From Deltaproteobacteria bacterium (lineage in GTDB: Bacteria; Desulfobacterota; G020345765), in assembly GCA_020345765.1 (NCBI GenBank), contig CP070770.1:2189397-2226474 (forward strand): a stretch of DNA of 37,078 nt, read 5' to 3'. The translations under genes were made by a program, and so were the position numbers. The first letter of the stretch is position 1. Every line of letters begins with the position of its first letter. Shown piece after piece: positions 1,884 to 31,541 of the stretch. The notes beneath the pieces were generated by a model. It was not told where the DNA came from. It ran no database searches and was given only the letters and a program-made list of their open reading frames with translations.

Positions 1884-1908
1884 TGTCTCATTTAAATTAG
1901 TTGCGACA
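1884..1908. promoter_or_regulatory. Distal upstream activator site (site A)
   Basis: Inverted repeat TGTCTCA-N11-TGCGACA, 25 bp long, about 262 bp upstream of the -12 element of the sigma-54 promoter at 2143-2158. It matches 20 of 25 positions with the dyad at 31517-31541, including most of the AT-rich spacer (TTTAAATTA). It is the likely binding site of the sigma-54 activator encoded at 31585-33972; the assignment is inferred from the shared motif and layout. Confidence 0.65.
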
Positions 1909-1962
1909 GTTATTTGCTCTCTGCTCATACATAAATATTTACTATAAAAAGCAAGAATACTG

Positions 1963-2004
1963 TGGGCTTTAGCTCCAGCCCTTATTACCAAGAGCTAAAG
2001 TCCA
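1963..2004. repeat. Stem-loop (13-bp stem) between the two activator sites
   Basis: TGGGCTTTAGCTC at 1963-1975 pairs with GAGCTAAAGTCCA at 1992-2004 through 13 bp with one G-U pair and a 16-base loop. No T-run follows, so it is not a convincing terminator. It resembles REP-type dispersed hairpins in appearance, but no second copy was noticed in the window. It sits between activator sites A and B and could be an incidental repeat or could affect DNA looping. Confidence 0.6.
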
Positions 2005-2027
2005 AGTGAGCCATATATATCTTATAC

Positions 2028-2040
2028 TGTCGCATTTAAG
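2028..2040. promoter_or_regulatory. Proximal activator half-site (site B)
   Basis: TGTCGCATTTAAG carries the same half-site as the right arm of site A (TGTCGCA when read on the other strand), followed by the same TTTAA extension. It lies about 127 bp upstream of the sigma-54 -12 element. A clear second arm is missing at the 11-base spacing; a weak TTTGACA occurs at 2064-2070. It is the probable proximal enhancer contact. Confidence 0.5.
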
Positions 2041-2142
2041 TTCTTAAATTAAACTTGTTCTAATTTGACACATATAGGGTGATTAAATTTTTATTTTCTT
2101 TATTTTCAAGTAGTTGGAGATGTTATCGTTATTGAGATAGAT

Positions 2143-2158
2143 TTGGCACATTATTTGC
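2143..2158 (+). promoter_or_regulatory. Sigma-54 (-24/-12) promoter for the RCC1-cytochrome pair
   Basis: TTGGCAC-N5-TTGC matches the sigma-54 consensus exactly, with GG at 2145-2146 and GC at 2157-2158, 12 bases apart. Transcription would start near 2170, giving a leader of about 110 bases before the RCC1 gene at 2283. Activator sites lie upstream at 1884-1908 and 2028-2040, as expected for an enhancer-dependent promoter. Confidence 0.85.
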
Positions 2159-2282
2159 CCAACATATTAGGCAACCAAGCTACTCAACATAAAAAAAACA
2201 GAAACTGCCTTAAAAGAAACCACTAATGAAGAATTACTAAAAATAAGGTAATCCATTAAACATTACCGAGAAGGAGGTTTTT

Positions 2283-3446
2283 ATGGATAGAAAGAAGAAG
2301 ACGGTAGTACTTATTTCCCTAAGCGCGATATTGATGTTTCTATCCGGGTGCAGCAATGGGTGTGGTGAGGAAATTAAAGGGAACGGTCCATACAGTGAAG
2401 GAATAGTTTATTCCTGGGGGCTTAACTCAAGAGGCCAGCTCGGTGACGGCACCACCACAGACAGGAGCAGACCAGAAGAGATACCGGACCTTAAGGGTGT
2501 GATTACCGTTTCCGGAGGCGAGAAACACACGGTAGCCCTGAAATCCGACGGGAAGGTCTTGAGCTGGGGTGAGAACTCCTTCGGTCAACTCGGCGACGGT
2601 ACCACGGATAGCCGGCTTAGTCCGGAAGAAATAAGCGGGATCAATGATGCCGTTGCTGTTAAAGCAGGTGAATTTCACACTTCCGTCCTGAAGTCGGACG
2701 GGACGGTCTGGAACGCTGGCTGGAACTTCTGCGGGGTTCTCGGTGACGGCACCGACAGCGACAGTAGCACCGTGGTTCAGGTAGCGGGTCTCGGTGATGT
2801 GGTAGCAATTAAAACAAAGCTTGCTCACACGGCGGCGCTGAGATCGGACGGGACGGTCTGGTCCTGGGGTTTGAATGTCCACGGTCAGCTTGGCGATGGG
2901 ACGGAAGAAGATCAGATCGTCCCGGTAATGGTAGCGGGCCTGACCGATGTCGTTGATGTTGAAGCCGGCGAGATGCACACCGTAGCGCTGAGATCGGACG
3001 GGACGGTCTGGGCCTGGGGTTGGAACGACTTCGGCCAACTCGGTGACGGGACTAAAGAGGATCGATTAACTCCGTTAAAGGTAGTGGGCCTAAGCGGTGT
3101 CGTTGACATCGAGGTAGGAGAGATACACTCAGTAGCCCTGGGGTCCGACGGGACGGTCTGGGCCTGGGGTGAGAACTCCTTCGGCCAACTCGGTGACGGG
3201 ACTGTTAATGAACGGCTCACACCGGTAAAGGTAATATATCTCAGCGATGTAGTGGCCATTGCGGCAGGCAATAACCACACGGCAGCGCTGAGGTCGGACG
3301 GGACGGTCTGGGCCTGGGGTGAGAACTCCTTCGGTCAACTCGGCGACGGGACCACGGATGACCGGTTCAGCCCGGGTGAGGTGGTGGACCTTACCGGCAT
3401 TACGGCCATTGCCGCCGGTGCCAATCATACCCTTGCAATTAAATAA
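2283..3446 (+). CDS. RCC1-repeat lipoprotein (seven-bladed propeller)
   Basis: Secreted lipoprotein made almost wholly of RCC1 (regulator of chromosome condensation 1) repeats. Residues 1-23 form a lipoprotein signal with basic start MDRKKK, a hydrophobic core and lipobox LSGC, so it is probably anchored to a membrane or the cell surface. Seven copies of a roughly 50-residue unit with the core SDGTVWAWG-x5-GQLGDGT follow (the third copy has CGVLGDGT), enough for one complete seven-bladed beta-propeller. In bacteria such propellers usually serve as binding or scaffold domains; no catalytic motif is seen. The start is set by a strong AGGAGG site seven bases upstream. It is followed 26 bases later by the pentaheme cytochrome gene, so the two probably share the sigma-54 promoter at 2143. 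The function is unknown; a partner of the cytochrome is an inference. Confidence 0.9.
   Translation: MDRKKKTVVLISLSAILMFLSGCSNGCGEEIKGNGPYSEGIVYSWGLNSRGQLGDGTTTDRSRPEEIPDLKGVITVSGGEKHTVALKSDGKVLSWGENSFGQLGDGTTDSRLSPEEISGINDAVAVKAGEFHTSVLKSDGTVWNAGWNFCGVLGDGTDSDSSTVVQVAGLGDVVAIKTKLAHTAALRSDGTVWSWGLNVHGQLGDGTEEDQIVPVMVAGLTDVVDVEAGEMHTVALRSDGTVWAWGWNDFGQLGDGTKEDRLTPLKVVGLSGVVDIEVGEIHSVALGSDGTVWAWGENSFGQLGDGTVNERLTPVKVIYLSDVVAIAAGNNHTAALRSDGTVWAWGENSFGQLGDGTTDDRFSPGEVVDLTGITAIAAGANHTLAIK
2400..3440 (+). repeat. Tandem repeats of about 150 bp coding the RCC1 units
   Basis: The seven RCC1 units are also repeated at the DNA level. GACGGGACGGTCTGG recurs in five of the units, and the segments at 3155-3190 and 3305-3340 are nearly identical for over 30 bases. 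This points to recent internal duplication or homogenisation by recombination, so the number of units could vary between strains. Confidence 0.8.
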
Positions 3447-3472
3447 AAGCAATAATAACAGGGGAGGGTATT

Positions 3473-5863
3473 ATGAACAAAAGATTTGTGTTGGGGATTG
3501 CCGCACTCGGCATCGTGATTTCTTACACCGTAATCACCGCCGCTTGGACACCGGTACCCGTCAAGGACGACCCGCTGGTGAGGATGCCGGGAACGCAGCC
3601 GGACCAGGGGGTAAACCTCGAGGCACCAAACCGGTGCCTGAATTGTCACGGTGGGTACAACACGGCTGTCGAGCCCGGGTATAACTGGACGGGATCGATG
3701 ATGGCCCAGGCGGCCAGGGACCCGATGTGGTTTGCCTGTATGACTGTGGCGGCCCAGGATGCGATCCATGCCGTCGGAAACCCAAATGCCACCGACATCT
3801 GTATTCGATGCCACTCTCCCGGTGGATGGCTGGGCGGACGCTCGGACCCGACGAACGTCTCGGCCCTGACCGGAAGCGATTTCGACGGCCTGCACTGCGA
3901 CTTCTGCCATACGAAGTGGGACCCGTTCTTCGAGAGCACCTATAACGGGACGCGGGAAGGCAGCGACTGGATCGGCTACTGGGACGAGACAACCAGCCTT
4001 TCGACGACGGAAGCGAATACAACCTATCTTGAGGATGCGTCCCTCTCGACGGGCATCACGCTGTTTTCGGGAGGAAATTTTTACAGCGGGAACCTGCCGC
4101 TTTACGACGCAACTTACCGGGAGAATGGGGGCGGCCAGTATTTCGTGAGTACGAACTCTCAGAAGAGAGCGAGCTTTGCGGATGCGGCGGCCCGGCACCA
4201 GATGCTGTACAGCCGCTATCACAAGTCCAAGTACTTCTGCTCCACCTGTCACGATGTATCCAACCCCGTGCTGGCGAACTTAGACCTATCGGGCCTGCCG
4301 GACCAGTCCGGAGGGGTGGATCTGATAACCGAGCAGTACTCCGCCGGCCGGTATTTCCATGTGGAGAGGACATTTTCCGAGTTCATGCTTTCCGCTTACG
4401 CTCAGCAGGGAGGGGCGGCGACGAACCCCGAGTTCCAGGCCCAGGGGGCCCCGGACATTACCTGGGCGGCGAAGTGCCAGGACTGCCACATGAGGGACGT
4501 TACCGGTGCAGGATGTGATAAAAAGGGTGTGCCGTTGAGGCCCGACGAGAGCACCGAGCACCCGAAATCGGGGCAACCCCTCCATGACCTCACGGGGGGA
4601 AATGCGTGGGTATCATACATTCTGGCGAGCGTTGACCCGAACGGTCCGGTTTTCGACCAGGTCAATGCCGATCTGCTCGGTCAGGGGCCGGCGGTGCTGA
4701 CCCTCGACCTGAACGCGGGTCAGACCCTGGCAGGTAGCGGTGCGGCGCTCAAGGCAGGTTCCGACCGGGCGAAGCAGCAGCTCAGGCTTGCGGCGACTAT
4801 AAAAAGCCTTCAGTACGAACCCGGTACCGGAAATATCTCCTTCAAGGTACAGAATAACACGGGCCATAAGCTCATCTCCGGCTTCCCCGAGGGCCGGAGG
4901 ATGTTCGTTAACATCAGGGCATATGCGGGCGGGGACCTTATCTACGAGGTGAACCCCTACGACTACACGGTCGGGACCTTGAAGGGACTTCCGCATTCCG
5001 TAAGTTCTCCGACCCTTGGGCCCAGTGAGGAGTATGTCGACGAGCTCGTTTACGAGGTACACCCGAGCAGCAGCATCACCGGCGAGTACGAGACCTTCCA
5101 CTTCGTTCTGGCGGACGGCCGGTATAAGGACAACCGGATACCCCCCCGGGGGTTCGACAGCGCCGGGGCATTGGTGAGGATTTCCGAGCCGGTACAAAAC
5201 GGTACGAGCGCACCCGATTACTTCACCCCTGAGGAATACGCCGGCGGTTATGACGATTTCAGCCTGAATATCACAAAAAGTGCGGATTATGTAAGGGTAA
5301 TTGCTTACTATCAGGGCACATCGCGGGAGTATATCGAGTTCCTGAGGGACGAGATTAACGGCACGATTACTACCCTTCCCGCCAGTGCCTATATCGTGCA
5401 GACCGATCCCTTCTTCAGCCAGCTCAAAGCATGGGGGAATACCATCTGGGAGCTCTGGCACCATAACCACGGGCTTGACGGTATCGGCACACCCGTGGAG
5501 GGTATCGTGCCGTTTGAGATGACCGCGGCAGAATGGGGAACACCGCCGACACCCCCGTGCCCGATTCCAAATACTCCCCAGGGCCTGACCGCTATTGGCG
5601 GAAGGAGGAACGTAACCCTAAGTTGGCAACCGGTTACTACTACCGGCGGATACAACATCTATTATGACCAGGCGGGGAAGGTGCAATTCATTACGAGCGT
5701 AGATGCCAATACCACGGGTTACCGGGACACCGGACTGGGACGCAATATCCAGTACTGCTATGTCGTTACCTCATGGAACGACTGTAACGGAAACGGCTCG
5801 TTCGATGCCGGAACCGATACGGAGAGCGGCTTCAGCAATGTGGCGTGTGCGACAACAAGATAG
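3473..5863 (+). CDS. Extracytoplasmic pentaheme cytochrome c with C-terminal FN3 domain
   Basis: A 796-residue exported multiheme cytochrome. Residues 5-24 are a Sec signal or anchor. Five CxxCH haem sites sit in the N-terminal 340 residues: C55-H59, C110-H114, C142-H146, C256-H260 and C335-H339. Residues about 340-690 have no haem motifs and look like a beta-rich domain. Residues from about 700 (GLTAIGG...VTLSW...YNIYYD) form a fibronectin type III domain, which is common in surface proteins. A GGGGAGGG site precedes the ATG. It is the second gene after the RCC1 lipoprotein and probably co-transcribed under sigma-54 control. Role: likely extracellular or periplasmic electron transfer; the redox partner and substrate are unknown. 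The gene ends 25 bases before the convergent DUF255 gene, with no clear terminator between them. Confidence 0.92.
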   Translation: MNKRFVLGIAALGIVISYTVITAAWTPVPVKDDPLVRMPGTQPDQGVNLEAPNRCLNCHGGYNTAVEPGYNWTGSMMAQAARDPMWFACMTVAAQDAIHAVGNPNATDICIRCHSPGGWLGGRSDPTNVSALTGSDFDGLHCDFCHTKWDPFFESTYNGTREGSDWIGYWDETTSLSTTEANTTYLEDASLSTGITLFSGGNFYSGNLPLYDATYRENGGGQYFVSTNSQKRASFADAAARHQMLYSRYHKSKYFCSTCHDVSNPVLANLDLSGLPDQSGGVDLITEQYSAGRYFHVERTFSEFMLSAYAQQGGAATNPEFQAQGAPDITWAAKCQDCHMRDVTGAGCDKKGVPLRPDESTEHPKSGQPLHDLTGGNAWVSYILASVDPNGPVFDQVNADLLGQGPAVLTLDLNAGQTLAGSGAALKAGSDRAKQQLRLAATIKSLQYEPGTGNISFKVQNNTGHKLISGFPEGRRMFVNIRAYAGGDLIYEVNPYDYTVGTLKGLPHSVSSPTLGPSEEYVDELVYEVHPSSSITGEYETFHFVLADGRYKDNRIPPRGFDSAGALVRISEPVQNGTSAPDYFTPEEYAGGYDDFSLNITKSADYVRVIAYYQGTSREYIEFLRDEINGTITTLPASAYIVQTDPFFSQLKAWGNTIWELWHHNHGLDGIGTPVEGIVPFEMTAAEWGTPPTPPCPIPNTPQGLTAIGGRRNVTLSWQPVTTTGGYNIYYDQAGKVQFITSVDANTTGYRDTGLGRNIQYCYVVTSWNDCNGNGSFDAGTDTESGFSNVACATTR

Positions 5864-5888: not shown

Positions 5889-7967
5889 TTAGAGGTTTTT
5901 TCCTCGCAGTTGGGCATCAAGGGAAGCCGGGTCGGTAACCGGTGCCTGGCAGGTATAGCGCTTACATACATAGACGGTAGGTCGATCGCCAACCATCTGT
6001 TTGTTTTCTAACAGTTTCAATCCGGATACCGGATTGGGGTCACCGGGGTCGCAGGCAGCGATAACCTTATTGGGCAACCAGGTAGAATATAGAGTGTGAA
6101 GCAGATCCGAAGTCGAGGGGTGGTCTCGTTGACCGATAATAGCGATCTCTTTAGGAGCGGACAGGTAGAAGTCCAGGGCACAGAGCCAGTTACTGAAACC
6201 AAGCGGATGGCGGGACATTGACTCTCGCATTGTCTTGAGTAACTGTTCGGATATCCGTTTGAGATGTTCATTATCAGTAATCCGGGCCAGTTTCAGCAGG
6301 ATTAAGGTGGCCGCCGAGGAACCGGATGGAATGGCCCCGTCAAACATGTTCTTAGGACGGACGAACAGGTCCTGATGCTTCTCGCTGGAATCATATAGCG
6401 TGCCCGTAGTTTCATCCCAGAACTGCTCGATCATAATCTCAGTTAGCCTGACGGCATACCGGAGCCATTCTCCACCAAAGGTGGCCTGGTGCAGGGTGAG
6501 TAACCCGTCAATAACGAAGGTGTAGTCCTGAAGGTAACCGTCGATCCCGGATTTACCATCCATATAGGTATGTTCGAGATGTCCGTCGGCAATCATCGAG
6601 TTTATTAAAAATGTTCCGCTGGCGACGGCAGCCGCCAGATAGTCATTCCGGTCGAGGACACAAGCCGCTTCCGCCAAGCTGGATAACATGAGCCCGTTCC
6701 AGGAAGTCAATACCTTTTCGTCCCGTCCCGGCCTGACTCTCTGTTCCCTGCTTTTCAGCAATTCTGCCTTGACCTGCCCGGTTATACTTGACGCATCTGG
6801 CTCAGCGTCATTGGTAACATGGAGGATATTCCGACCCTCAAAATTACCTTCAGGGGTAACGCCGAAATAGTCATAGACGGTCTTGAAATCTTTTCCTGCC
6901 AATTCAGCGATTTCCTGTGCCGTCCATAAGTAGTATTTGCCCTCGACGCCCTCGCTATCGGCATCCTGGGTACTGTAGAAACCACCCTGGGGATCGGTCA
7001 TCTCCCGGAGCACATAGTTAAGCGTCTCCTCGGCGATAGTGCGGTAAAGCTGCTTGCCGGTCACTAAATAGGCGGACAGGTAAACCCGGCTGAGCAGGGC
7101 ATTATCATAGAGCATCTTCTCAAAGTGGGGAATAAGCCAGTTTGCATCCGTAGCATAGCGGTGGAAACCGCCGCCGATCTGGTCGTAGATACCCCCCCTG
7201 GCCATTTTCTCCAGGGTTAACTCCACCATTTCCAAAGCAGCGGAGTCTTGGGTGCGGTGGAAGTATCTCAAGAGAAATTCCAACGTCATTGGCTGGGGAA
7301 ACTTGGGTGCGTTGCCAAAACCGCCGTTTTCCCGGTCGAAGTCCTGTTTAAGAACCGAATAGGCCCGGTCGAGGGTATCCTCTGTCAGCGGTTCAGAAGT
7401 GCCGGTCCCGATCGTTCGTGACATTACTGCCAATAACTGCCCGACGGTCCGCTCGATGTCACGGCGGCGATTATGATAGGCGTCAACGACGGTCTTGAGG
7501 ACCCGGGGAAAGCCGGGGATGCCGTGTCTGTCTTCCGGCGGGAAGTAGGTGCCGCCGAAGAACGGCTTGCCTTCCGGGGTCAAGAAAACGGTCAGCGGCC
7601 AGCCACCCCTACCGGTCATTGCCTGCACCGCTTCCAGGTAGACGGTATCAAGGTCAGGGCGCTCTTCTCGGTCCACTTTTATATTAATGAAGTTGTCATT
7701 CATTAGCCGGGCAATATTCTCGTTTTCAAAGCATTCGTGCGCCATGACATGGCACCAGTGACATGCAGAATAGCCGATACTTAAGAGGATAGGCTTGTCC
7801 TCGTTCCGGGCACGGTTGAGGGCTTCGTCACCCCACGGATACCAGTCCACGGGATTATCGGCGTGCTGAAGTAGGTACGGGCTGGTTTCTCCGGCCAAAT
7901 GGTTCGGCAAGAATACCTCCGTCTGATTTTTCCGAGGCGGAACGTAGTCGGACCCATCCTCTCCCAT
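5889..7967 (-). CDS. DUF255 thioredoxin-fold / GH-like protein (YyaL, SPATA20 family)
   Basis: A 692-residue member of the DUF255 family (Bacillus YyaL, human SPATA20). The N-terminal thioredoxin-like domain includes the family signature [18 protein letters not shown] (about residues 29-46) and the CHWC redox motif in SACHWCHVM. The rest is an (alpha/alpha)6-barrel region like N-acylglucosamine epimerases, with [14 protein letters not shown] and [12 protein letters not shown] motifs. The length is normal for the family. The biochemical role is not established; a disulfide-related function is suggested by CxxC. The ATG at 7967 directly abuts the TAA of the upstream 89-residue membrane protein, so the two are co-transcribed. 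The 3' end converges with the pentaheme cytochrome gene. Confidence 0.9.
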
Positions 7968-8237
7968 TTAATGGGATAAAATTACAATACCTGCATGAAC
8001 AGTGGCAAAGGTAATAGTGAGGATGGCCAGAAGTCGGTGATATTTCAGCTTCCATCTTCGGAGTCCGGCAATAATCGTCATGAGAAGAGATCCATATGTT
8101 GTAATTCCTGCAGGTATTATGAGCGTCCTAATGTCAAACTTAATGACAACATCAGATGTGTGGGCAATTACATTCGATGGAATTAGAAACAAAATAAATA
8201 GTAATGCTCCGAAAATAAAAAATACTTGATATTTCAT
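7968..8237 (-). CDS. Small integral membrane protein, function unknown
   Basis: An 89-residue protein with an N-terminal hydrophobic segment (about 5-25, possibly a signal anchor), a second at about 41-58 and a third at about 67-87. The loop RRWKLKYHRLLA before the last helix is basic, so it should face the cytoplasm. His residues occur in the last helix region (YHRLL, ATVHAG, final SH), which resembles the ends of haem-b-binding membrane subunits, but no family was recognised. A strong GGAGGAAG site precedes the ATG. Its stop codon directly abuts the start of the DUF255 gene, and it lies 31 bases after the DUF302 gene. Confidence 0.75.
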   Translation of the reverse strand: MKYQVFFIFGALLFILFLIPSNVIAHTSDVVIKFDIRTLIIPAGITTYGSLLMTIIAGLRRWKLKYHRLLAILTITFATVHAGIVILSH

Positions 8238-20301: not shown

Positions 20302-20314
20302 TTCCTGATCTCCT

Positions 20315-20683: not shown

Positions 20684-20721
20684 GTTTAATCATCCCTTTC
20701 AGATTAATAATCTCTTCATAC

Positions 20722-20955
20722 CTAATCTTTTATTTTTTTAACGTAGCCTTTATAGGTATCATCTTCCTGTTCAATCCCTAAGAATTCCTGGCCGTTCGAG
20801 CTGCACCAGGCCGGCAGATCGCTCTTGATCCCTTCATCGGTAGAGATAACTTCCAGGACCTGGCCGACCGGCACCTCCTTTATCTTCTGAGTAATCTTGA
20901 TAATCGGCATGGGGCAAAGGAGCCCGTAGCAATCCAAGGTTATATCAGCTTTCAT
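20722..20955 (-). CDS. tusA: TusA/SirA family sulfur carrier protein
   Basis: A 77-residue TusA-family protein, a cytoplasmic carrier of persulfide sulfur. The diagnostic CPMP motif lies in DCYGLLCPMPIIKITQKI near the N-terminus, with the conserved GQVLEVISTDEG strand after it and a second Cys in AWCSSNGQEFLG. The size is normal. GGGGAAGAG precedes the ATG. It follows the DsrE-like gene by 18 bases; TusA plus DsrE-type proteins form sulfur relays in many sulfur-metabolising prokaryotes, and here they continue an IscS-IscU cluster. Confidence 0.95.
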   Translation of the reverse strand: MKADITLDCYGLLCPMPIIKITQKIKEVPVGQVLEVISTDEGIKSDLPAWCSSNGQEFLGIEQEDDTYKGYVKKIKD

Positions 20956-20973
20956 CTCTTCCCCTAAAAAATA

Positions 20974-21450: not shown

Positions 21451-21472
21451 CTTTTTTGCTCTCCTTTATCGG

Positions 21473-23211: not shown

Positions 23212-23249
23212 CAACCAGATTCCTCATAACCTTTTTCTTATTTCATTAA

Positions 23250-24149: not shown

Positions 24150-24154
24150 CTTTT

Positions 24155-24394
24155 TTACCCTCCTAATTCCCGGCTTATTGCCTCCTTATCAAACCCGACG
24201 ATTATTTTACCCTCAATATCTACTACCGGGACTCCCATCTGCCCAGATTTATCCACCATTTCTTTTGCCGCGGTGCGATCCCGGCCTACATCTGCCTCTT
24301 CAAATGTTATGTTCTTTTCCTTCAGGAAGTTTTTTACCATGGTGCAATAAGGACAGGTGGATGTGGTATATACTTTTACAGCTTTAGACATCAT
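24155..24394 (-). CDS. Glutaredoxin-like thiol oxidoreductase
   Basis: A 79-residue glutaredoxin/NrdH-like protein with the active site TSTCPYCTMVKNFL (Cys14-Cys17), a cis-proline segment GVPVVDIEGKIIVGFD, and a short C-terminal helix. It belongs to the small NrdH/YruB-like branch commonly reduced by thioredoxin reductase, which is encoded next to it. The ATG at 24394 has AGGAGGTG six bases upstream; a second ATG one codon later is also possible. It sits four bases after the acs stop codon, so the genes are probably one transcript. Confidence 0.94.
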   Translation of the reverse strand: MMSKAVKVYTTSTCPYCTMVKNFLKEKNITFEEADVGRDRTAAKEMVDKSGQMGVPVVDIEGKIIVGFDKEAISRELGG

Positions 24395-24397
24395 GTA

Positions 24398-26368
24398 TCA
24401 CCTCCTTTTACTCCTATTAGATCTTGGCTGCTTTTTATCTGTCTCTTTTCCTTTCGGCTTACCCTTTAGCATCTGCTTGAATTCATCGTAAACGGACTTT
24501 ATCTCATCGACGGAGGCCTCGTCCTCCAGGGTGGTAACATCACCGACAGCTACATCTTCCACGATCGCTTTCAATATCCGCCTCATTATCTTGCCGGATC
24601 TTGTTTTGGGAAGCCTGGTCACGAAATGAATCTCCTTAGGTGTTGCTATCGGTCCTATTTGTTTTCTAAGGGTTCCGATTATTTCCTTCTTTAGTTTATC
24701 GGCAGGATTATATCCTTCTTTTAAAATCGCAAAGACAACAATATTCTCTCCTTTTATTGGATCCGGGATGCCCACTACGGCAGCCTCGGCCACGAAAGGA
24801 GTGGATACAACCGTACTCTCTATCTCAGCCGTACCTATCCTATGACCCGCCACCTTTAAGACCTCGTCCGCCCTTCCCAGTAGCCAAAAGTACCCCTCGT
24901 CGTCCTTGATCGCATAATCGCCCGTATAATACATACCCTTGAATCTTGACCAATATACATCTTTGTATCTGTCGGAATCCTTATAAAGACCGTTGGTCAT
25001 ACCCGGCCAGGGTTTTCTTATCACCAGGTACCCTTTTACTCCGGGGGTCATCGGTTCACCGGAATCACCTACTACTTCGGCATCAATCCCGGGCAAAGGC
25101 AAGGTGGCGGAGCCAGGCTTAAGGGGCACAAGTTCCAGGCCCGGGGCCGGTGATATCATTATCCCCCCGGTTTCGGTCTGCCACCAGGTATCCACAATCG
25201 GACACCTTTCACCGCCGATATTCCGGTAATACCATTCCCACACCTCGGGGTTGATCGCTTCACCAACGGATCCCAGGATCTTCAGACTGCTCAGATCGTG
25301 CTTCTTTACCCACTCCTCGCCGTAACGGATGAACATCCGGATGGCGGTAGGGGAGGTGTAGAGGATGGTAACCCCGTATCTTTCGATGATCTCCCACCAT
25401 TTACCGGGGTCGGGATAGTCCGGGGCTCCCTCATACATGAGGATCGTTGCGCCGTGGAGCAACGGGGCATAGACAATTGACGAATGCCCGGTAACCCAAC
25501 CCACATCGGCAGTGCACCAGTAAATGGACTCGTCGGAGATATCGAATACCCACTTGTAGGTGGCGTAGTTGTAAACCAGGTATCCTCCGGTGGAATGCAC
25601 GATACCCTTTGGTCTCCCGGTAGTCCCGGAGGTATAAAGTATGTAGAGCGGATGGGAAGCGTCAACGATTTCGGGCTCGACATAATTTTCGGCATCCTTC
25701 ATCAACTCATGATAAGGGCGGTCCCGTCCCTCTTCCATTTTCAGCTCTTCCTGGGTCCTCCTTACCAGGACTACATTTTTAACCGTCGGCGCGGATTTTA
25801 ATGCATCATCAACGATACTCTTAAGGGCAACCAGCTTTCCTCTCCTGATACCGAAGTCGGCGGTCACCAGGACCTTTGCCCCGGTGTCGTTTATCCTGTC
25901 GGCCAACGACTGGCTACTGAAACCCGAAAAAACCACGGTATGGGTTGCACCGATCCGGGCGGTCGCTAGCATTGCGATTACCAACTCCGGGATCATCGGC
26001 AGATAGAGGACTACGATATCGCTCTTCTTGACGCCTAACTTTTTCAGAACGGAAGCGAATCGGTTTACCTCCCGGTGGAGCTGGGTATAGCTGAAGGATT
26101 TTGTATTCCCGTGCTCGTCCTCCCAGTAGAGGGCCACCTTATTCTTACGCCAGGAGTTAAGGTGGACGTCCACACAGGCGTATGAGGCGTTGAGTGTGCT
26201 CCCGACAAACCACCGGGCAAACGGCTCGTCCCAAACGAGGACCTTGTCCCAGCGCTTGAACCAGGGAATATTTTCCGCCTCTTTCTCCCAGAATCTCTCC
26301 GAGTCGGAGATGGCATTCTTTTGCAGCTCAATATACCTTCTTATCGGGTAAAACTTTTCCTTTTCCAT
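24398..26368 (-). CDS. acs: Acetyl-CoA synthetase (AMP-forming)
   Basis: A 656-residue enzyme that activates acetate to acetyl-CoA with ATP. The AMP-binding core motif is ILYTSGTTGRPKGIVHSTGGYL, followed by DTWWQTETGGIMI, YYTGDYAIKDDEGYFWLLGRADEVLKVAGHRIG and the C-terminal domain motif LPKTRSGKIMRRILKA with the catalytic/acetylated lysine. The length matches bacterial Acs. The C-terminus is extended by a very basic tail, KGKPKGKETDKKQPRSNRSKRR-like, which is unusual. AGGAAG precedes the ATG. It follows fprA by 24 bases, placing acetate activation inside a redox-defence operon. Confidence 0.97.
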   Translation of the reverse strand: MEKEKFYPIRRYIELQKNAISDSERFWEKEAENIPWFKRWDKVLVWDEPFARWFVGSTLNASYACVDVHLNSWRKNKVALYWEDEHGNTKSFSYTQLHREVNRFASVLKKLGVKKSDIVVLYLPMIPELVIAMLATARIGATHTVVFSGFSSQSLADRINDTGAKVLVTADFGIRRGKLVALKSIVDDALKSAPTVKNVVLVRRTQEELKMEEGRDRPYHELMKDAENYVEPEIVDASHPLYILYTSGTTGRPKGIVHSTGGYLVYNYATYKWVFDISDESIYWCTADVGWVTGHSSIVYAPLLHGATILMYEGAPDYPDPGKWWEIIERYGVTILYTSPTAIRMFIRYGEEWVKKHDLSSLKILGSVGEAINPEVWEWYYRNIGGERCPIVDTWWQTETGGIMISPAPGLELVPLKPGSATLPLPGIDAEVVGDSGEPMTPGVKGYLVIRKPWPGMTNGLYKDSDRYKDVYWSRFKGMYYTGDYAIKDDEGYFWLLGRADEVLKVAGHRIGTAEIESTVVSTPFVAEAAVVGIPDPIKGENIVVFAILKEGYNPADKLKKEIIGTLRKQIGPIATPKEIHFVTRLPKTRSGKIMRRILKAIVEDVAVGDVTTLEDEASVDEIKSVYDEFKQMLKGKPKGKETDKKQPRSNRSKRR

Positions 26369-26392: not shown

Positions 26393-27577
26393 CTAAATGA
26401 AGTTGTGTTCTTTGTGCTTCCGGGCAATGGTGTTAGCCAGATTATCTAAAGCCTTGAAATCATCTTCCTTCGGAAACCCCTTAACGACTACCGGGTCCAA
26501 TAATTCTACCTTCAGATTAGGTATCATTCCGGTAAGTTGTTCTACGGTTTGACCTCCCCAGCCGTAGGAGCCGATGATCGAGGCGAATTTCAGGTTGGGT
26601 CGGAGGGCGTTTGCCAGAAAGGCAGCATAGGCGATATTCGGATGCGGTCCGGCGAGGACGGTAGGTGTCCCGATAACAACAGTTGCTGCATCCACAAGCG
26701 ACATCGCCAATTTTCCAAGGTCGGTCACGGTGAGGTCGAATTGCTTTACCGTTACGCCCCTTTCGGCTAACGCCTCAACAAGGCACTCCACCATTTTACG
26801 GGTACTGTCGTGCATCGAGATATAAGGTAGTACCACGATGTTCTTGGGCTCATCGAAGGCCCAATTACGATATGCTTCCAAGATAAACTCGGGTTTATCA
26901 TACATAGGGCCGTGGCTGGGAGCGATGATCTCGATGGCGCAGTCTTTGATCTTCTCCAGGTTCTTCTGGATGTTGGCCCGGAAGGGCATCATGATCTCCG
27001 CATAATACCTCTTGGCTGCCTCGTAGACCAGTCCCTCGTCGGTGACATATAGGTCGGTGGTGGCTAAGTGGGAGCCGAAAAAATCACAGGAGAATAGTAT
27101 TTTTTCATCTTTCAGATAAGTAAGCATGGTGTCCGGCCAGTGGACCCAGGGGGCATGGATAAACTCCAGGGTCTTGTCCCCGAGCGAAATAGTCTCCTTG
27201 TCGTCAACGGTAATGAACCTGTCTTCCGGGATCAGGAGCAGTTCCGTAAGGATCCCTTTACATTTGGGGGTGCTGACGACTTTTGCCCGAGGGTATTTTT
27301 CGAGGATCCGGGGGATGGTGCCGGAGTGGTCCTGCTCCCCATGGTTGGCAACCAGGTAATCTAAGTCCTTGACCTCGAGTCCGCTCAGATGACCAGTAAG
27401 TACCTCCTCCATGGTTGGATCTACCGTATCGATGAGGACGGTCTTTTCGCTTCCCTTGATTAGATAAGAGTTGTAGCTCGTGCCGTCGGGGAGCGGGATG
27501 AGGGCATCGAATAACCGACGGTCCCAGTCAACTGCCCCGACCCAGAAGACTCCCGGCTTTATTTCCCTTGGTTTCAT
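26393..27577 (-). CDS. fprA: A-type flavoprotein FprA (flavodiiron oxygen/NO reductase)
   Basis: A 394-residue flavodiiron protein that reduces oxygen to water or NO to nitrous oxide in anaerobes. The metallo-beta-lactamase domain (1-250) carries the diiron ligands His79, Glu81, Asp83 and His84 in NHGEQDHSGT, His146 in PWVHWPD, Asp165 in SCDFFGSH and His near 226 in PSHGPMYD. The flavodoxin domain (about 255-394) binds FMN, with MHDSTRKMVECL as phosphate loop and GSYGWGGQTVEQL. It lies next to hrb, the same gene pair as in Moorella, where Hrb passes electrons to FprA. The PAS gene is 12 bases upstream. Confidence 0.97.
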   Translation of the reverse strand: MKPREIKPGVFWVGAVDWDRRLFDALIPLPDGTSYNSYLIKGSEKTVLIDTVDPTMEEVLTGHLSGLEVKDLDYLVANHGEQDHSGTIPRILEKYPRAKVVSTPKCKGILTELLLIPEDRFITVDDKETISLGDKTLEFIHAPWVHWPDTMLTYLKDEKILFSCDFFGSHLATTDLYVTDEGLVYEAAKRYYAEIMMPFRANIQKNLEKIKDCAIEIIAPSHGPMYDKPEFILEAYRNWAFDEPKNIVVLPYISMHDSTRKMVECLVEALAERGVTVKQFDLTVTDLGKLAMSLVDAATVVIGTPTVLAGPHPNIAYAAFLANALRPNLKFASIIGSYGWGGQTVEQLTGMIPNLKVELLDPVVVKGFPKEDDFKALDNLANTIARKHKEHNFI

Positions 27578-27589: not shown

Positions 27590-27979
27590 TCAACCATCCA
27601 GCAGTCTCTTTTCTCCTTCAATCTTCTTAACATCCGTGATGTCTTGTGTTACTTCCAGTGTGCCCAGATATTTACCGGCCTCATTCCGAACGGCGAAATA
27701 CCTTATGTATACCTTGTGGTCCTTGAGGTCTATCCAGAACTCGGCGGAATCCCTCTTGCCGCCCTTGAAGTCGGAGAGTATCTGGTTCACCTTATCCACG
27801 CTCTGCTTGGGGTGACAGTTCTGGACCGATTTCCCGACTACCGAGACCGGCCGCTTGAAGATCCTGGTCTCGTGCTTATTCCAGAATTTGACCAGGTCAT
27901 TTTCGTCAACGAAGGAGAGCTCTACCGGTATTGTTTCCAATATCCCTTCTAATTGTTCCTTGCTCAGGTTTTCTATCAT
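27590..27979 (-). CDS. Single-domain PAS protein (DUF438 C-terminal type)
   Basis: A 129-residue stand-alone PAS sensor domain. Its signature NCHPKQSVDKVNQIL...FWIDLKDHKVYIRYFAVRNEAGKYLGTLEVTQDIT matches the PAS domain found at the end of DUF438 proteins, where the CHP motif may bind a cofactor such as haem. The N-terminal part has an ETIPVELSFVDENDLVKFWN strand pair. No output domain is fused, so it may sense oxygen or redox state and act through a protein partner. GGGAGG precedes the ATG. It is located between hrb and fprA with spacings of 12-15 bases, which argues for a role in the FprA/Hrb system. Confidence 0.9.
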   Translation of the reverse strand: MIENLSKEQLEGILETIPVELSFVDENDLVKFWNKHETRIFKRPVSVVGKSVQNCHPKQSVDKVNQILSDFKGGKRDSAEFWIDLKDHKVYIRYFAVRNEAGKYLGTLEVTQDITDVKKIEGEKRLLDG

Positions 27980-27994: not shown

Positions 27995-28681
27995 TTAATC
28001 TACCTTCTCAAACTGATCCTTGCTCGCCCCGCAGACCGGACATACCCAGTCGTCCGGTATCTCTTCGAAGGGGGTCCCCGGCTTTATCCCGCCGTCAGGG
28101 TCACCCAGATCGGGGTCATAGACATAGCCGCAAACGGTGCACTTGTATTTGGCCGTTTTCGGCACGGCCGCCTTTTTCTCCTCAACGTAGCTGGGGGCAC
28201 TCTTGGGGGTTGTGCCCCTCTTGACCTGGTGATAGTAAGCGTAGGTCATCGGCTCGCCTTCTTTCACGACGTCGGCTCCCACAAGCTCCCCGATAAAGAT
28301 CGTATGAGTCCCGACATCGATTCGGTCAATCACCCGGGCTTCCAGATAAGCCAGGGTCTGGTCGAGGACTATCGGGGCCTTGGTTTCGCCTGTCCTGTAG
28401 TTGACACCCTTGAGTTTGTCTACTTCCCGGCCGGACTTGAAGCCGAAATTGCCGATGAAGCTCAGGGGCGTGTCCTGAGAAAGGATCGAGACGGTAAATA
28501 CCTTGCTTTCCTGGATGAACTCATGGGTCAAATTTTTCTTATTGATACTTACGGCAACAACCGGCGGTTCGGATGTGATCTGAATGACCGTATTGGCGAT
28601 CTGACAGTTGGGCTTACCTTCCTTTTCCGAGCATACGACGTACAAGCCATAACTCAATTTAAAAAGGGCCTTGAGGTTCAT
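27995..28681 (-). CDS. hrb: High-molecular-weight rubredoxin (flavin reductase-rubredoxin fusion)
   Basis: A 228-residue fusion. Residues 1-155 are an FMN-binding split-barrel flavin reductase domain ([62 protein letters not shown]). Residues 175-228 are a rubredoxin with [10 protein letters not shown] and [16 protein letters not shown]. This architecture is Hrb, the NADH-dependent electron donor to FprA in Moorella-type anaerobes. The ATG at 28681 has GGAGGTGG upstream and overlaps the stop of a 23-residue micro-ORF as ATGA. It is part of the STAS-headed operon under the sigma-54 promoter at 31274. Confidence 0.96.
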
Positions 28682-28749
28682 TCTCCACCTCCGTGTTTAA
28701 GTACCTCCAAAGTCTTAGTCGTTTTATCTTTAATATCAACATGCTTCAT
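28678..28749 (-). CDS. Candidate 23-residue micro-ORF between ferredoxin and hrb
   Basis: The 64-base gap between the ferredoxin and hrb genes is spanned exactly by a small reading frame starting [12 protein letters not shown] and ending LKHGGGE. Its ATG overlaps the ferredoxin TGA as ATGA, and its TGA overlaps the hrb ATG as ATGA. GGGAG lies eight bases before its start. It would keep ribosomes moving through the gap and couple ferredoxin to hrb translation, and the peptide might also have its own function. No homology was recognised, and chance is possible for so short a frame. Confidence 0.5.
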
Positions 28750-29531
28750 TTTTTTATCTCCCGGGATAGGACCTCGCCCTTTATCCCGATCTTTATACTT
28801 TCGAAGGGGATGTCCTTTCCGCTTTTCTTCAAGGCTTCCTGGGCCAGGTGCACCAGGCCGTGGCAGCAGGGGACTTCCATATGCAGGACCTTTAATGACT
28901 TGATGTTTGAATGTTTGAATATCTGGCTGAGTTTATCAAGATAAAGGTCTACCTCGTCGAGCTTGGGACAACCCACGGCGATCGATTTGCCTTTGAGGAA
29001 GTCCTGATGGAGATTGGCATACGCAAAAGGGACACAATCGGCAATCAAGACTAAATCCGCTTTCTGAAAGTAGGGCGCATCCACGGGAACGAGATGGAGC
29101 TGTACCGGCCACTGGCGGAGCTCCGAATTAATCTCTACCTTTTCCCCTGTTTCCTCCTCTTTCCCTTCCCATTGGAGTATTTTAGCCGAAGGGCAGGCAG
29201 TCATCCCCGGATGGGAATGGTGTTGGGGAAGCTCGTGCGCATGTTCCTTTAAGTGCTTCAAGTGTCTCTCTAAAAGCTCCGGTGATTTTTCTTTGATGTG
29301 GGCAATCACTCCCTCTTCGTCATACTCTTCGACTTCCTTTTCTTCAATACTCAATGCGCCCTGGGGACACTCACCCATACACGCACCAAGCCCGTCACAG
29401 AAGTTCTCCTTTACTAATCTTGCTTTGCCGTTAATGATCTGGAGCGCTCCTTCCGGGCATCCGGGAATACAAAGACCGCACCCATCACATTTTTCTTCAT
29501 CGATCTTGATTATTTTCCGGCGCACTTTCAT
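28746..29531 (-). CDS. 4Fe-4S ferredoxin-domain protein with C-terminal Cys-containing domain
   Basis: A 261-residue iron-sulfur protein. Residues 10-65 form a two-cluster ferredoxin domain with CDGCGLCIPGCPEGAL and CDGLGACMGECPQGAL; the second has the C-x5-C-x3-C form typical of this family rather than CxxCxxC. A His/Glu-rich linker follows (KHLKEHAHELPQHHSHPG). The C-terminal domain (about 125-261) contains ADCVPFAYANLHQDFL, VGCPKLDEVD and HMEVPCCHGL, whose cysteines may bind a further cluster. Such proteins are frequent in anaerobes but have no fixed function; electron transfer is likely. AAGGAGG precedes the ATG. It is the gene before the micro-ORF and hrb. Confidence 0.88.
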   Translation of the reverse strand: MKVRRKIIKIDEEKCDGCGLCIPGCPEGALQIINGKARLVKENFCDGLGACMGECPQGALSIEEKEVEEYDEEGVIAHIKEKSPELLERHLKHLKEHAHELPQHHSHPGMTACPSAKILQWEGKEEETGEKVEINSELRQWPVQLHLVPVDAPYFQKADLVLIADCVPFAYANLHQDFLKGKSIAVGCPKLDEVDLYLDKLSQIFKHSNIKSLKVLHMEVPCCHGLVHLAQEALKKSGKDIPFESIKIGIKGEVLSREIKK

Positions 29532-29575: not shown

Positions 29576-30313
29576 TCAAGTCCTATCTCCCCCGTACATC
29601 TCGTACGCCTTCTTCTTCCCGGAACCGGTTTTGAAGATCTTCTCGATCTTACTGGAAAGTTCGTTGCTGTCGGCATCCGGGAATTCATCGGGGATATTGA
29701 CCAGCCAGTCGGCGTCCCAGACGATCCGGAATTCGGGGGTATCTATATCTTTAACACTATGATGGTTACCAATAATCCGGCTGACATGTTCAATAGTGTC
29801 TTTATCCAGGTTAAGTTCTTCCATGATCCGCTGGGCGATCGGAGGTCCTTCGATTTCTTGGTATTTGCCGGCCGGACTGCCATGCTTTTTCTCCGCCTCC
29901 TGGATACCGATGTCGTGGAGAACCGCTGCGGTCAGGACTACCCGGGGATCGCCGCCCTCCTCACGTAGAAGCTCCTGAGCCCTTTCGAGTACCGAGAGGG
30001 CATGGGTAATACATTTCTGGTCATCTCCAAACTCTTTCTTCATTGCCGCGATCAATCGGTCTACCAGAGATACCTCGTCCGGATCTTCCGCGGGGACAGT
30101 TTTCGGGTCGAAGCCCAGACATTCCTGGGCATGTTCGCACCACTGAGCGCAGCCTAAGCTGAGCTTGGGGTTCTGAATTCGCTGGCCGCACCGGGAGCAG
30201 CGGCGGATTGGATCATCCTTAAAAAACTCGATTTGATGGCCGCACTGGCTGCAGGCCACCTCGAATATATCCCCGGGTTTCCAGAATCGGGTATCCTGAC
30301 CGGGACATTTCAT
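29576..30313 (-). CDS. HD-domain phosphohydrolase with N-terminal zinc ribbons
   Basis: A 245-residue protein. Residues 15-60 contain two CxxC pairs (CSQCGHQIEFF, CSRCGQRIQNP) of a zinc-ribbon or rubredoxin-like knuckle, then a CAQWCEHAQEC motif. Residues 85-215 are an HD domain with the metal ligands in THALSVLER, TAAVLHDIGI, GNHHSVKDI and IVWDADWLVN. HD proteins hydrolyse phosphate esters of nucleotides or second messengers; the substrate here is unknown. The zinc ribbons suggest protein or nucleic-acid contact. GAGGAAG precedes the ATG. It lies in the STAS operon. Confidence 0.9.
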   Translation of the reverse strand: MKCPGQDTRFWKPGDIFEVACSQCGHQIEFFKDDPIRRCSRCGQRIQNPKLSLGCAQWCEHAQECLGFDPKTVPAEDPDEVSLVDRLIAAMKKEFGDDQKCITHALSVLERAQELLREEGGDPRVVLTAAVLHDIGIQEAEKKHGSPAGKYQEIEGPPIAQRIMEELNLDKDTIEHVSRIIGNHHSVKDIDTPEFRIVWDADWLVNIPDEFPDADSNELSSKIEKIFKTGSGKKKAYEMYGGDRT

Positions 30314-30342: not shown

Positions 30343-30543
30343 TCACAACCGTTCGTCCCGGCCCCGGCACTGGCAGTCAGGGGTATAACAGGTAACGTTC
30401 AGAAAATCGCAGCTTTCCTTGCAGAATGGGCACACCTCGGGCGGGGCTTCCGCGCTGAGTGCATACCCGCACCGGGAACACTTCCACTCAAGCATACCGT
30501 TTAACTCTCTCGGCCCGTTCATTTGTTCGTTACTTTTACCCAT
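30343..30543 (-). CDS. Rubredoxin-like small Cys-rich protein
   Basis: A 66-residue protein whose central part LEWKCSRCGYALSAEAPP and EVCPFCKESCDFLNV is rubredoxin-like, with C-x2-C twice. A further cysteine group CYTPDCQC lies at the C-terminus, giving eight cysteines in all. It resembles the rubredoxin-type tail domains of rubrerythrin-related proteins, but the spacing between the two knuckles is short, so zinc is as likely as iron. Its ATG lies inside the last codons of the upstream gene (ATGGGTAA overlap) with AAAGGAGGT before it, so translation is coupled. Confidence 0.85.
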   Translation of the reverse strand: MGKSNEQMNGPRELNGMLEWKCSRCGYALSAEAPPEVCPFCKESCDFLNVTCYTPDCQCRGRDERL

Positions 30544-30838
30544 TTTTACCTCCTTTATTATGTTTTATCGTTCGTTTCGGCAGCGGAGTTCCTGTTCCTC
30601 TTTCAACATCCCATGTGCCTTTCTGCTTGTGGATCTCACGCTCATGTTCGGCCTGGGCTTTAATCTTGTAGGCGCAGTCGCGGATAATACCGTAGAGCAC
30701 CCGACAGCCATCGTCTTCACAATCCAACTCTCCCTGATCCGCAACAATAATCAACTGCCGGACCAGTTCCAGCACTTCCTTTATGTGGAGGTTGGGATTA
30801 CCGGTCATTTCTTGAAGCTTTTCCGACAGCTTTCCCAT
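30536..30838 (-). CDS. Conserved-looking hypothetical protein
   Basis: A 100-residue protein starting MGKLSEKLQEMTGNPNLHIKE, predicted all-helical, with a central acidic Cys pair in ELDCEDDGCRVLYG and a third Cys in IRDCAYKIKAQAEHERE. The end is basic (PLPKRTIKHNKGGKNG). The Cys pattern suggests metal or redox chemistry, but no family was recognised. The start at 30838, 13 bases after the STAS stop with GAGAGAG ahead of it, is preferred to an upstream ATG at 30871 that would overlap the STAS gene. It overlaps the next gene by eight bases. Confidence 0.75.
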   Translation of the reverse strand: MGKLSEKLQEMTGNPNLHIKEVLELVRQLIIVADQGELDCEDDGCRVLYGIIRDCAYKIKAQAEHEREIHKQKGTWDVERGTGTPLPKRTIKHNKGGKNG

Positions 30839-30851
30839 TTCATTACTCTCT

Positions 30852-31211
30852 CTATTTATTAAATGATTCAATTGCCTTCTTTTCTTCAGAGAATATTAGA
30901 AAATAATCATTAAACCCCAGCATATTAAAAGTACTCTCGATCCTGTGGGAAAGATTGAGTAATCTGATGCCTCCCTGATGCTTAGCTGCCAACTTATGGA
31001 AGTCGAGGATGATGCCCAAGGCCGAGCTGTTCAAGTATTCGAGTTCGGAACAGTCAAGGATAATCTTGTAATACCCCTTGTTGATCTGCTCGCCCAATTG
31101 CTGCTCAAAGTGGTTAATATTGCTGGCATCGACATAGCCGGCGATCTTTAAGATCATTATTCCACCTTCCTCCAACCGGGTGGTAATTTCAAAGACGTTA
31201 TCTTTTTTCAT
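30852..31211 (-). CDS. STAS-domain protein (anti-sigma factor antagonist type)
   Basis: A 119-residue single STAS domain of the SpoIIAA/RsbV type. The order is strand ITTRLEEGGIMILKIAGYVDASN, helix FEQQLGEQINKG, strand YKIILDCSELEYLNSSALG with the Ser that is phosphorylated in relatives, and a final GIRLLNLSHRIESTFNMLG. Such proteins normally relieve an anti-sigma kinase; no partner kinase or phosphatase is encoded in the window. It is the first gene after the sigma-54 promoter at 31274-31289, with a leader of about 50 bases and AGGGGGC before the ATG. It may tie the operon to a partner-switching pathway elsewhere in the genome. Confidence 0.93.
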   Translation of the reverse strand: MKKDNVFEITTRLEEGGIMILKIAGYVDASNINHFEQQLGEQINKGYYKIILDCSELEYLNSSALGIILDFHKLAAKHQGGIRLLNLSHRIESTFNMLGFNDYFLIFSEEKKAIESFNK

Positions 31212-31273
31212 TTGCCCCCTACCTTTTTATTTGAAAAGACCGACTTCTTATATTGTTTTGAGTTATTATACTG

Positions 31274-31289
31274 GCAAAGGGTATGCCAA
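31274..31289 (-). promoter_or_regulatory. Sigma-54 (-24/-12) promoter for the STAS-headed operon
   Basis: On the minus strand TTGGCAT-N5-TTGC, with GG at 31287-31286 and GC at 31275-31274, 12 bases apart as required. Only one position departs from the consensus TGGCAC. Transcription would start near 31262. Activator sites lie upstream at 31376-31404 and 31517-31558. The rest of the 373-base gap 31212-31584 contains no gene. Confidence 0.82.
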
Positions 31290-31375
31290 ATAAGTCTTAA
31301 CATCGAAAAAGTTTTTAAGTACTTGAAAATAAAAACATTTAATAAAATCAACCAGGGATAGGAAAAGCTGGATCA

Positions 31376-31404
31376 AGTCTCATTTTATAGGTTTAAATGA
31401 AACA
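31376..31404. promoter_or_regulatory. Proximal activator site (site C)
   Basis: GTCTCA and TGAAACA arms separated by 15 bases, about 116 bp upstream of the -12 element. The arms match those of the 25-bp dyads, but the spacing is four bases longer, so binding may be weaker or to one arm only. Its distance from the promoter mirrors site B at the other promoter. Confidence 0.45.
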
Positions 31405-31516
31405 GTAGCATGTCAAAGACAGATTAAAAGCAGATCGGAAATGTCCGAACTATCGCAATAATCTACGTTATTATTACAATTCGAGGGATAAATTCGGATA
31501 TGCTGGTGAAAATTGG

Positions 31517-31541
31517 TGTTTCATTTAAATTAAATGAGACT
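31517..31541. promoter_or_regulatory. Distal activator dyad (site E)
   Basis: TGTTTCA-N11-TGAGACT, a 25-bp inverted repeat with an AT-only spacer, about 255 bp upstream of the sigma-54 -12 element. It matches site A (1884-1908) at 20 of 25 positions. A further half-site AAATGAGACA lies at 31549-31558, in direct repeat with the right arm at a 17-base step. It is the likely target of the Fis-type HTH of the adjacent activator. Confidence 0.68.

Follow-up and report, generated by a model that had tools for sequence, protein, structure and literature searches.

A ten-promoter sigma-54 set in a deltaproteobacterial genome and its probable link to oxygen or redox defence

The stretch of DNA analysed here (the window; 37,078 nucleotides of the Deltaproteobacteria bacterium assembly GCA_020345765.1, G000:C1:2189397-2226474, where G000 is the genome of the window) carries two sigma-54 promoters of the same build, each preceded by inverted repeats (dyads). 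We consider it probable, at roughly 0.7, that both belong to a sigma-54 oxygen/redox-defence regulon of anaerobes that comprises at least ten operons and is controlled by an activator combining a cysteine-rich PAS domain, an AAA+ domain and a Fis-type helix-turn-helix (HTH). This reading is carried by the promoter architecture, the size of the promoter set, the co-occurrence of the HTH with the dyads and with a small protein, and the genes located downstream, all of which were read directly from the DNA.

G000 consists of 3,416,895 bases in one contig with N gaps and is estimated to be 85% complete, and G001, the only other genome of its genus among 99 searched, is fragmentary. Phylum-wide counts were taken over 395 genomes of the phylum, whose gene content suggests sulfate-reducer-like anaerobes; p-values across the phylum are overstated, as the genomes of one phylum are not independent.

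A shared promoter architecture at ten places in the genome

A first-pass annotation of the window had placed a 25-bp dyad at 1884-1908 and at 31517-31541, and both copies were found at exactly these positions with 20 of 25 bases identical. The -24/-12 promoters that it reported are likewise present, but their coordinates were off by one base and read 2144-2158 on the plus strand and 31288-31274 on the minus strand. The dyad lies upstream of the -24/-12 in both cases, with 260 and 253 bp from dyad start to -24 start, and the second related site that had been described exists at both promoters, its left arm being 116 bp before the -24 in each. Two elements had been overlooked: a TTTCAAN4TTR box exactly 40 bp before the -24 at both promoters, which we take to be like the binding site of integration host factor (IHF) by comparison with the IHF consensus, to which it has one mismatch, and an extra upstream half-site, clear at promoter 2 and at promoter 1 seen only in inverted form (9/11 match). 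The sites are as follows.

1884-1908, plus strand: dyad A of promoter 1, TGTCTCATTTAAATTAGTTGCGACA, from the pattern search
2028-2056, plus strand: dyad B of promoter 1, TGTCGCATTTAAGTTCTTAAATTAAACTT, right arm degenerate, from the anchored alignment
2104-2116, plus strand: IHF-like box of promoter 1, TTTCAAGTAGTTG, starting 40 bp before the -24
2144-2158, plus strand: sigma-54 -24/-12 promoter 1, TGGCACATTATTTGC
31548-31558, minus strand: extra half-site of promoter 2, TGTCTCATTTA, a direct repeat 17 bp upstream of dyad A
31517-31541, minus strand: dyad A of promoter 2, AGTCTCATTTAATTTAAATGAAACA on the minus strand
31376-31404, minus strand: dyad B of promoter 2, TGTTTCATTTAAACCTATAAAATGAGACT
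31316-31328, minus strand: IHF-like box of promoter 2, TTTCAAGTACTTA, starting 40 bp before the -24
31274-31288, minus strand: sigma-54 -24/-12 promoter 2, TGGCATACCCTTTGC

When G000 was searched for the dyad beside a promoter, a check suggested with the first-pass annotation, the palindrome TGTYTCATTTAANTTAAATGARACA gave six sites in 3.42 Mb at up to three mismatches and none with the reversed control, and the looser pattern of the annotation gave, at one mismatch, six forward matches versus one in the control. Each of the six was followed, 251-264 bp downstream and in the right orientation, by TGGCAY-N5-TTGC. Two sequence models, one of the proximal 96 bp without the dyads and the other of the full region, were seeded with nine copies (six from G000 and three from G001) and searched in both genomes, and both returned the identical ten places in G000. 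With the proximal model the last of the ten came at 3.6e-7 and the next match at 0.008; with the full model the last of the ten came at 2.5e-26, followed by antisense pieces of known sites from 9.6e-4 and by the first match elsewhere in G000 at 0.25. Nine of the 15 places in the two genomes were model seeds and six were new (four in G000, two in G001), the copies of G001 being four complete ones and a fifth truncated at the end of a contig. The pattern search assumed a spacer of 11 bases and had therefore missed the four new G000 dyads, in which the spacer measures 8 or 12. These results support the earlier proposal that a single sigma-54 regulon with promoters of matching architecture is involved, and enlarge it from two to ten promoters in G000. 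Searched through the phylum under stricter filters, by which weak matches are lost, the promoter model (R3) matched two of the 395 genomes, both of this genus; therefore, the promoter in its full form seems restricted to the genus, with a wider distribution for the half-sites alone.

The left arm of dyad A lies 242-264 bp before the -24 in each of the 14 full copies, and that of dyad B lies 114-117 bp before it in 13 copies and 130 bp in one, some right arms being degenerate. Both positions fall within the range usual for sigma-54 enhancers, at least 80 bp upstream. The dyads of G000 have the form TGTYTCA-N8/11/12-TGARACA. The IHF-like box, TTTCA[AG]N4TT[AG], starts 40 or 41 bp before the -24 in 15 of 15 copies, all of which also contain TGGCAY-N5-TTG, the last C being absent in one (L098). 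An extra direct half-site (at least 9/11 positions) is placed 16-18 bp upstream of dyad A in eight of the 14, and an inverted one in two others. Mean pairwise identity among the 14 copies was 0.91 for both left arms, 0.83 for the IHF-like box and 0.79 for the -24/-12, block figures that are favoured by the choice of anchors by motif, and 0.56 for the 20 bp directly before the -24; identity fell to 0.28 in the spacer preceding dyad B and to 0.26-0.28 in the flanks (upstream, and starting 47 bp downstream), which is near the composition expectation. G000 has one RpoN gene (one PF04552 match, 203 bits).

A stretch of ~300 bp that recurs ten times in G000 might also be a dispersed repeat or mobile element copied round the genome, and some of the downstream genes are indeed paralogous (a cytochrome N-terminus 84% identical, a pair of XRE genes), while all spacers except that preceding dyad B are slightly above background (0.33-0.36 versus 0.28-0.29). 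We regard this as extremely improbable and reject it because identity is high in the motif blocks alone and falls to background both in the flanks and in the spacer preceding dyad B; furthermore, each copy is followed by a same-strand open reading frame (ORF; by eye at L100), and other families of the phylum have the half-site as well. Judged by this pattern of identity, the ten-copy element is a maintained promoter and not a copied repeat.

The activator, its HTH and a small protein across the phylum

The activator gene adjoins promoter 2 on its upstream side and shares its strand.

31585-34008, minus strand: sigma-54 activator, MEDS - PAS - PAS (C-x10-CG-x4-C-x2-C) - AAA+ (GAFTGA) - Fis HTH
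31609-31749, minus strand: HTH of the activator, KLESKAVSDALRQTQGNRLKAARLLGVSRATLHRFL

An AAA+ domain with GAFTGA and a Fis-type HTH place it among the bacterial enhancer-binding proteins (bEBPs), within which a cysteine-rich PAS, AAA+ and a Fis HTH of the form LLGVxRATLxRFL are the traits of its subfamily. As the first-pass annotation had stated, it is the only sigma-54 activator in the window, where 31585-34008 is the sole PF00158 match; G000 as a whole has 23 such matches, of which 20 score at least 107 bits. The G001 orthologue (76-78% identical, in an ORF of 1055 amino acids) also stands immediately before a dyad promoter, but its neighbourhood corresponds to that of locus L098 of G000, where no activator copy exists. 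The assumed link between activator and dyads is strengthened by this other context and by the presence of the HTH subfamily near TGTYTCA dyads in other families. With ~20 bEBPs in G000, an unrelated regulator could bind the dyads and the activator could be their neighbour by chance, but this is very unlikely given the two chromosomal contexts in which the activator stands beside a dyad promoter in the genus, and given the co-occurrence of HTH, small protein and dyad across the phylum, including genomes outside the seeds of the HTH profile.

In G030, from a different family of this phylum, the best-matching homologue of the activator (52%) precedes a dyad (TGTATCA-N12-TGATACA), a second dyad, TGGCACAAAATATGC, the gene of a small protein and cytochrome bd. 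The small protein also follows the activator in the window operon (after a STAS gene), in G001 and in a Kiritimatiellales metagenome-assembled genome. A profile built from five of these proteins matched 38 of the 395 genomes, and a further 36 loci from 35 genomes, one of which contributed two, were examined. At 21 of the 36 the signature HTH was encoded on the same strand at most 2 kb upstream of the small protein, and an HTH profile added G133 and G349 nearby. This profile, consisting of 22 HTHs, scored at least 60 bits in 42 of the 395 genomes, a line that was set after the scores were known and below which the next score was 56.6; 34 of the 42 were among the 38 small-protein genomes. Upon exclusion of the 22 seed genomes, the HTH was present in 12 of 16 genomes with the small protein versus 8 of 357 without it (Fisher 1.7e-14).

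Without any preset motif, the commonest 6-mer in the 23 intergenic regions between activator and small protein (those of the 21 loci, of G030 and of the Kiritimatiellales genome) was GTCTCA/TGAGAC, present in 22, and TGGCAC was present in 16. The 700 bp upstream of the 36 loci contained 99 exact TGTYTCA half-sites versus 6.6 in dinucleotide shuffles (15-fold), dyads with up to two mismatches were found at 28 loci versus 3.5 expected, and a -24/-12 (up to one mismatch, last 250 bp) at 11 loci versus 0.4 expected. The exact palindrome occurred in 13 of the 42 HTH genomes versus 12 of the 353 others (p 7e-8), a test that overlaps with that of the upstream dyads, several of the 13 being the same dyads. 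As a stand-alone genome marker the exact palindrome was discarded, being weak outside the loci; its reversed control matched 6 of the 395 genomes, none with the small protein. At the Kiritimatiellales locus (L047) a clean TGTYTCA dyad was lacking, and half-site words with a short-spaced, one-mismatch dyad were found downstream of its activator. In G131 the small protein and a dyad are located ~1.35 Mb from the best HTH match, and control in trans is therefore plausible.

Eight genomes had the HTH and no match to the small-protein profile. In two of them a CydA motif and TGARACA half-sites were found directly downstream of the activator, two had half-sites only and three had none. The remaining one contains L186 (G300:C9), where an ORF ~0.66 kb downstream of the activator and behind five TGTYTCA half-sites encodes VLDNACKLR and appears small-protein-like by eye; it is a probable diverged small protein missed by the profile. 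At L183 and L185 (G141 and G112) an activator with the same HTH is directly followed by TGARACA half-sites; cytochrome bd genes follow at L183 without the small protein, and only the CydA motif was seen at L185.

AlphaFold2 models of two small-protein sequences showed two long helices, at residues 19-39 and 43-73, with a mean predicted local distance difference test (pLDDT) score of 77 and blocks of 87-94 over residues 21-70, so that the protein is presumably a hairpin. In a fold search 103 matches reached E 10 and none reached E 0.001, a sequence search of the PDB with the window protein gave none, and family scans gave none in Pfam (window protein), NCBIfam (three members) or PHROGs (two members). 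Its constant position suggests that the small protein may be a partner or feedback protein of the activator.

The first-pass annotation had placed the operons under one MEDS-PAS sensor. The window activator does contain MEDS (Pfam 2.3e-46) and PAS domains, with GAF absent among its 12 Pfam matches; however, MEDS was not found in six related activators scanned in Pfam, and G000 encodes a near-identical second HTH. MEDS is the domain that the window activator has in common with MEDS/DcmR sensors, which are predicted to bind small hydrocarbon derivatives. As the core sensor of the family MEDS was dropped, since it is unsupported outside the genus. A cysteine segment in the PAS region was common to the window activator and all 21 linked activators when aligned (C...CG...C in all 21, a fourth cysteine in 14), which makes the cysteine-rich PAS, and not MEDS, the candidate sensor conserved across the phylum. 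Among the six scanned, a Pfam PAS was found in five and none in L173 at E 1e-5; the L145 activator has a GAF in addition to PAS.

The second HTH belongs to a gene fragment at G000:C1:1489448-1490500 that is 81-82% identical to the activator over residues 453-803, its recognition helix reading SRATLYRFL versus SRATLHRFL, and the regulon is therefore not assignable to the MEDS protein alone. This copy might even be the main regulator of the dyads, or the sites might be common to both activators, a reading that we place on the unlikely side. A 100-N gap beside tuf interrupts the copy at its 5' end, so that it may be truncated, both promoter models found no dyad promoter beside it, and the single HTH match of G001 at E 1e-11 is the MEDS-type activator, though G001 is fragmentary. 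At L056 7350-8532 (G000:C1:1489349-1490531) the gap adjoins an EF-Tu-like gene (by eye), and a scaffold join caused by a repeat is possible.

Oxygen-defence genes, proposed mechanism and known systems

The 4.3 kb downstream of the small protein at the 36 loci were scanned on the same strand with signature peptide motifs. Any of eight redox-gene motifs was present at 30 loci, with rubrerythrin at 22, desulfoferrodoxin at 20, flavodoxin at 12, cytochrome bd at 11, rubredoxin at 10, Fur-family and thiol peroxidase at five each and ferritin at one; 29 loci had a motif of rubrerythrin, desulfoferrodoxin (superoxide reductase) or cytochrome bd. When 14 downstream genes from 12 loci (11 of the 36, and G030) were checked in Pfam, 13 proved to be of oxygen-defence, redox or Fur families. 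The exception was a response regulator from L177, a locus without any motif, and the motif-free locus L150 has a Pfam flavodoxin.

For DNA binding, the role of IHF, sigma-54 dependence, the oxygen signal and the role of the small protein we infer the following. The activator (31585-34008, with MEDS as an addition to Cys-PAS, AAA+ and Fis HTH) would bind TGTYTCA half-sites as two dyads located upstream at ~250 and 116 bp, IHF (or a protein like it) would bend the DNA at the box 40 bp before the -24, and the activator ring would remodel sigma-54 RNA polymerase at TGGCAY-N5-TTGC. The signal is probably oxygen or the redox state, read by the cysteine-rich PAS. In its basic, phylum-wide form the system would be an oxygen- or oxidative-stress-defence operon headed by the small helical protein (with rubrerythrin, desulfoferrodoxin, cytochrome bd and others), of which Hrb and FprA behind STAS and the small protein would be the window version; in the genus of G000 it would have expanded to a multi-operon regulon by the addition of cytochrome, RND efflux, DnaJ/Hsp70, STAS and XRE genes. 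More tentatively, and at somewhat under even odds in our estimate, these elements could form one undescribed sigma-54 oxygen-defence system of strict anaerobes throughout the phylum, with a bEBP whose PAS holds a cysteine cluster (perhaps Fe-S) and which acts from TGTYTCA enhancers on operons of rubrerythrin, superoxide reductase and cytochrome bd, with a new small protein, encoded first in these operons, feeding back on it, and with a global switch in this genus covering at least ten operons, including multiheme cytochromes, metal efflux and chaperones.

Several observations weigh against an oxygen/redox-defence regulon of this kind. Among the genes scanned, a direct O2/NO-reducing module (Hrb/FprA) stands behind one of the ten G000 promoters and the other nine operons are not typical of oxygen defence; the genus may have turned an oxygen-defence switch into something else. 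Six of the 36 loci have none of the redox motifs, and the downstream stretches, which were read in three frames, may not each be a single operon. The -24/-12 was seen in only the 11 loci given above and was not found between activator and small protein in the Kiritimatiellales genome, four of the 38 small-protein genomes lack the HTH at 60 bits, and the exact palindrome also occurs in the 12 genomes without the HTH. Many genomes of the phylum sample are fragmentary, and the near-copy of the activator bears on the assignment of the regulon.

It is from the contents of the ten operons, most of which are not oxygen-defence genes, that another signal for the same regulon has to be considered, namely a small organic molecule sensed via MEDS, or nitric oxide, the oxygen-defence neighbourhood then not being applicable in this genus. 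MEDS is strongly matched in the window activator and the G001 orthologue aligns over this part at 77% identity; moreover, FprA-type proteins can reduce nitric oxide as well as O2. We nevertheless hold such a signal to be unlikely, since the parts conserved in the phylum are the cysteine-rich PAS region, the HTH and the small protein, with MEDS lacking from the six activators scanned.

In strict anaerobes the induction of rubrerythrin, superoxide reductase and cytochrome bd is usually discussed via repressors such as PerR. The PerR/Fur peroxide regulons of anaerobes include rubrerythrin, superoxide reductase and related targets, PerR acting as a repressor of ordinary (sigma-70) promoters. The kinds of target are alike here, Fur-family genes being found downstream at 5 of the 36 loci. 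A dedicated activator of the enhancer type, equipped with a DNA site of its own, a candidate cysteine sensor and a companion protein, would be a concrete and testable alternative in many uncultured lineages.

NorR senses nitric oxide through an N-terminal GAF domain and has three GT-N7-AC enhancer sites. In contrast, the window activator has MEDS, PAS and a cysteine-rich PAS with no GAF match, the G000 dyads are TGTYTCA-N8/11/12-TGARACA (the NorR pattern itself was not searched for), and several operons and a small partner protein are involved. The NorR-norVW (flavorubredoxin) system is alike in sigma-54, several enhancer sites and an FprA-type flavodiiron target (compare PMC2941729).

For the sigma-54 regulome of Desulfovibrio vulgaris, the passages available describe many bEBPs, several of them beside their targets, and motif groups with TGT/ACA half-sites, in three of which TGT and ACA are 9, 11 or 12 bp apart (Kazakov 2015, PMC4641369), unlike the TGT-N19-ACA of the six G000 palindrome sites. 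None of the bEBPs was linked to oxygen-defence operons in those passages, and the main text does not contain the words 'oxygen', 'cytochrome bd' or 'IHF' (PMC4641369). The literature searched, including the portions available of PMC4641369, PMC11451228 and PMC12316311, contained no description of this sigma-54 oxygen-defence system, though other wording may hide papers. Mechanistically, the combination of bEBP, enhancer, IHF-like box and sigma-54 is of a well-known class. What appears to be new is the site together with the HTH subfamily, the partner protein and the role in oxygen defence. A function is thereby offered for an unannotated small protein family, and the ten promoters are a clean set for work on long-range activation.

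Genes behind the promoters

The genes behind the two window promoters, assigned by Pfam unless stated otherwise, are as follows; the five CxxCH motifs of the pentaheme cytochrome named in the first-pass annotation were confirmed.

2283-3446, plus strand: RCC1-repeat lipoprotein, first behind promoter 1 (Pfam RCC1; lipobox by eye)
3473-5863, plus strand: pentaheme c-type cytochrome (five CxxCH)
30852-31211, minus strand: STAS (anti-sigma antagonist-like), first behind promoter 2
30536-30838, minus strand: small protein with two predicted long helices, of an unannotated family (IRDCAYKI), conserved partner of the activator subfamily
29576-30313, minus strand: HD-domain protein
28746-29531, minus strand: 4Fe-4S ferredoxin-like protein
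27995-28681, minus strand: flavin reductase-rubredoxin fusion (Hrb-like)
27590-27979, minus strand: single PAS-domain protein
26393-27577, minus strand: FprA-type flavodiiron protein (ODP and flavodoxin domains)

Beyond FprA, on the same strand at 18595-26368, follow genes of a multiheme cytochrome, DsrE-like and NifU-like proteins, a class V aminotransferase, a pyridine nucleotide-disulphide oxidoreductase and an acetyl-CoA synthetase-like protein.

The other dyad promoters of G000 precede the following genes.

L007: receiver-like protein (Pfam 23.2 bits, below the cut-off)
L008: TolC/CusB/CusA-type RND efflux (Pfam)
L009: DnaJ-TPR, Hsp70, TPR and PAS kinase (Pfam)
L010, 7571-7957: second pentaheme cytochrome, residues 1-81 only (84% identical)
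L098: STAS, small protein and macro domain
L099: STAS (Pfam)
L100: short ORF (by eye)
L101: XRE HTH (Pfam)

Those of G001 precede RND efflux genes (by position and N-terminal likeness to L008), a histidine kinase with response regulators (Pfam), two XRE genes (one checked in Pfam) and the small protein, beyond which lies a macro-like gene (both by eye).

Neither L010 nor L104 gave any additional match to the cytochrome. Behind the dyad promoter and the receiver-like gene of L007, a 203-residue ORF (7583-8194) matches only the first 150 of 420 ThiC positions and is likely truncated. Tandem XRE regulator genes are located at L101 2231-3348 and L102 6512-8597; a dyad promoter precedes both of the tandem XRE genes in G001 (one seen in part) and one of them in G000.

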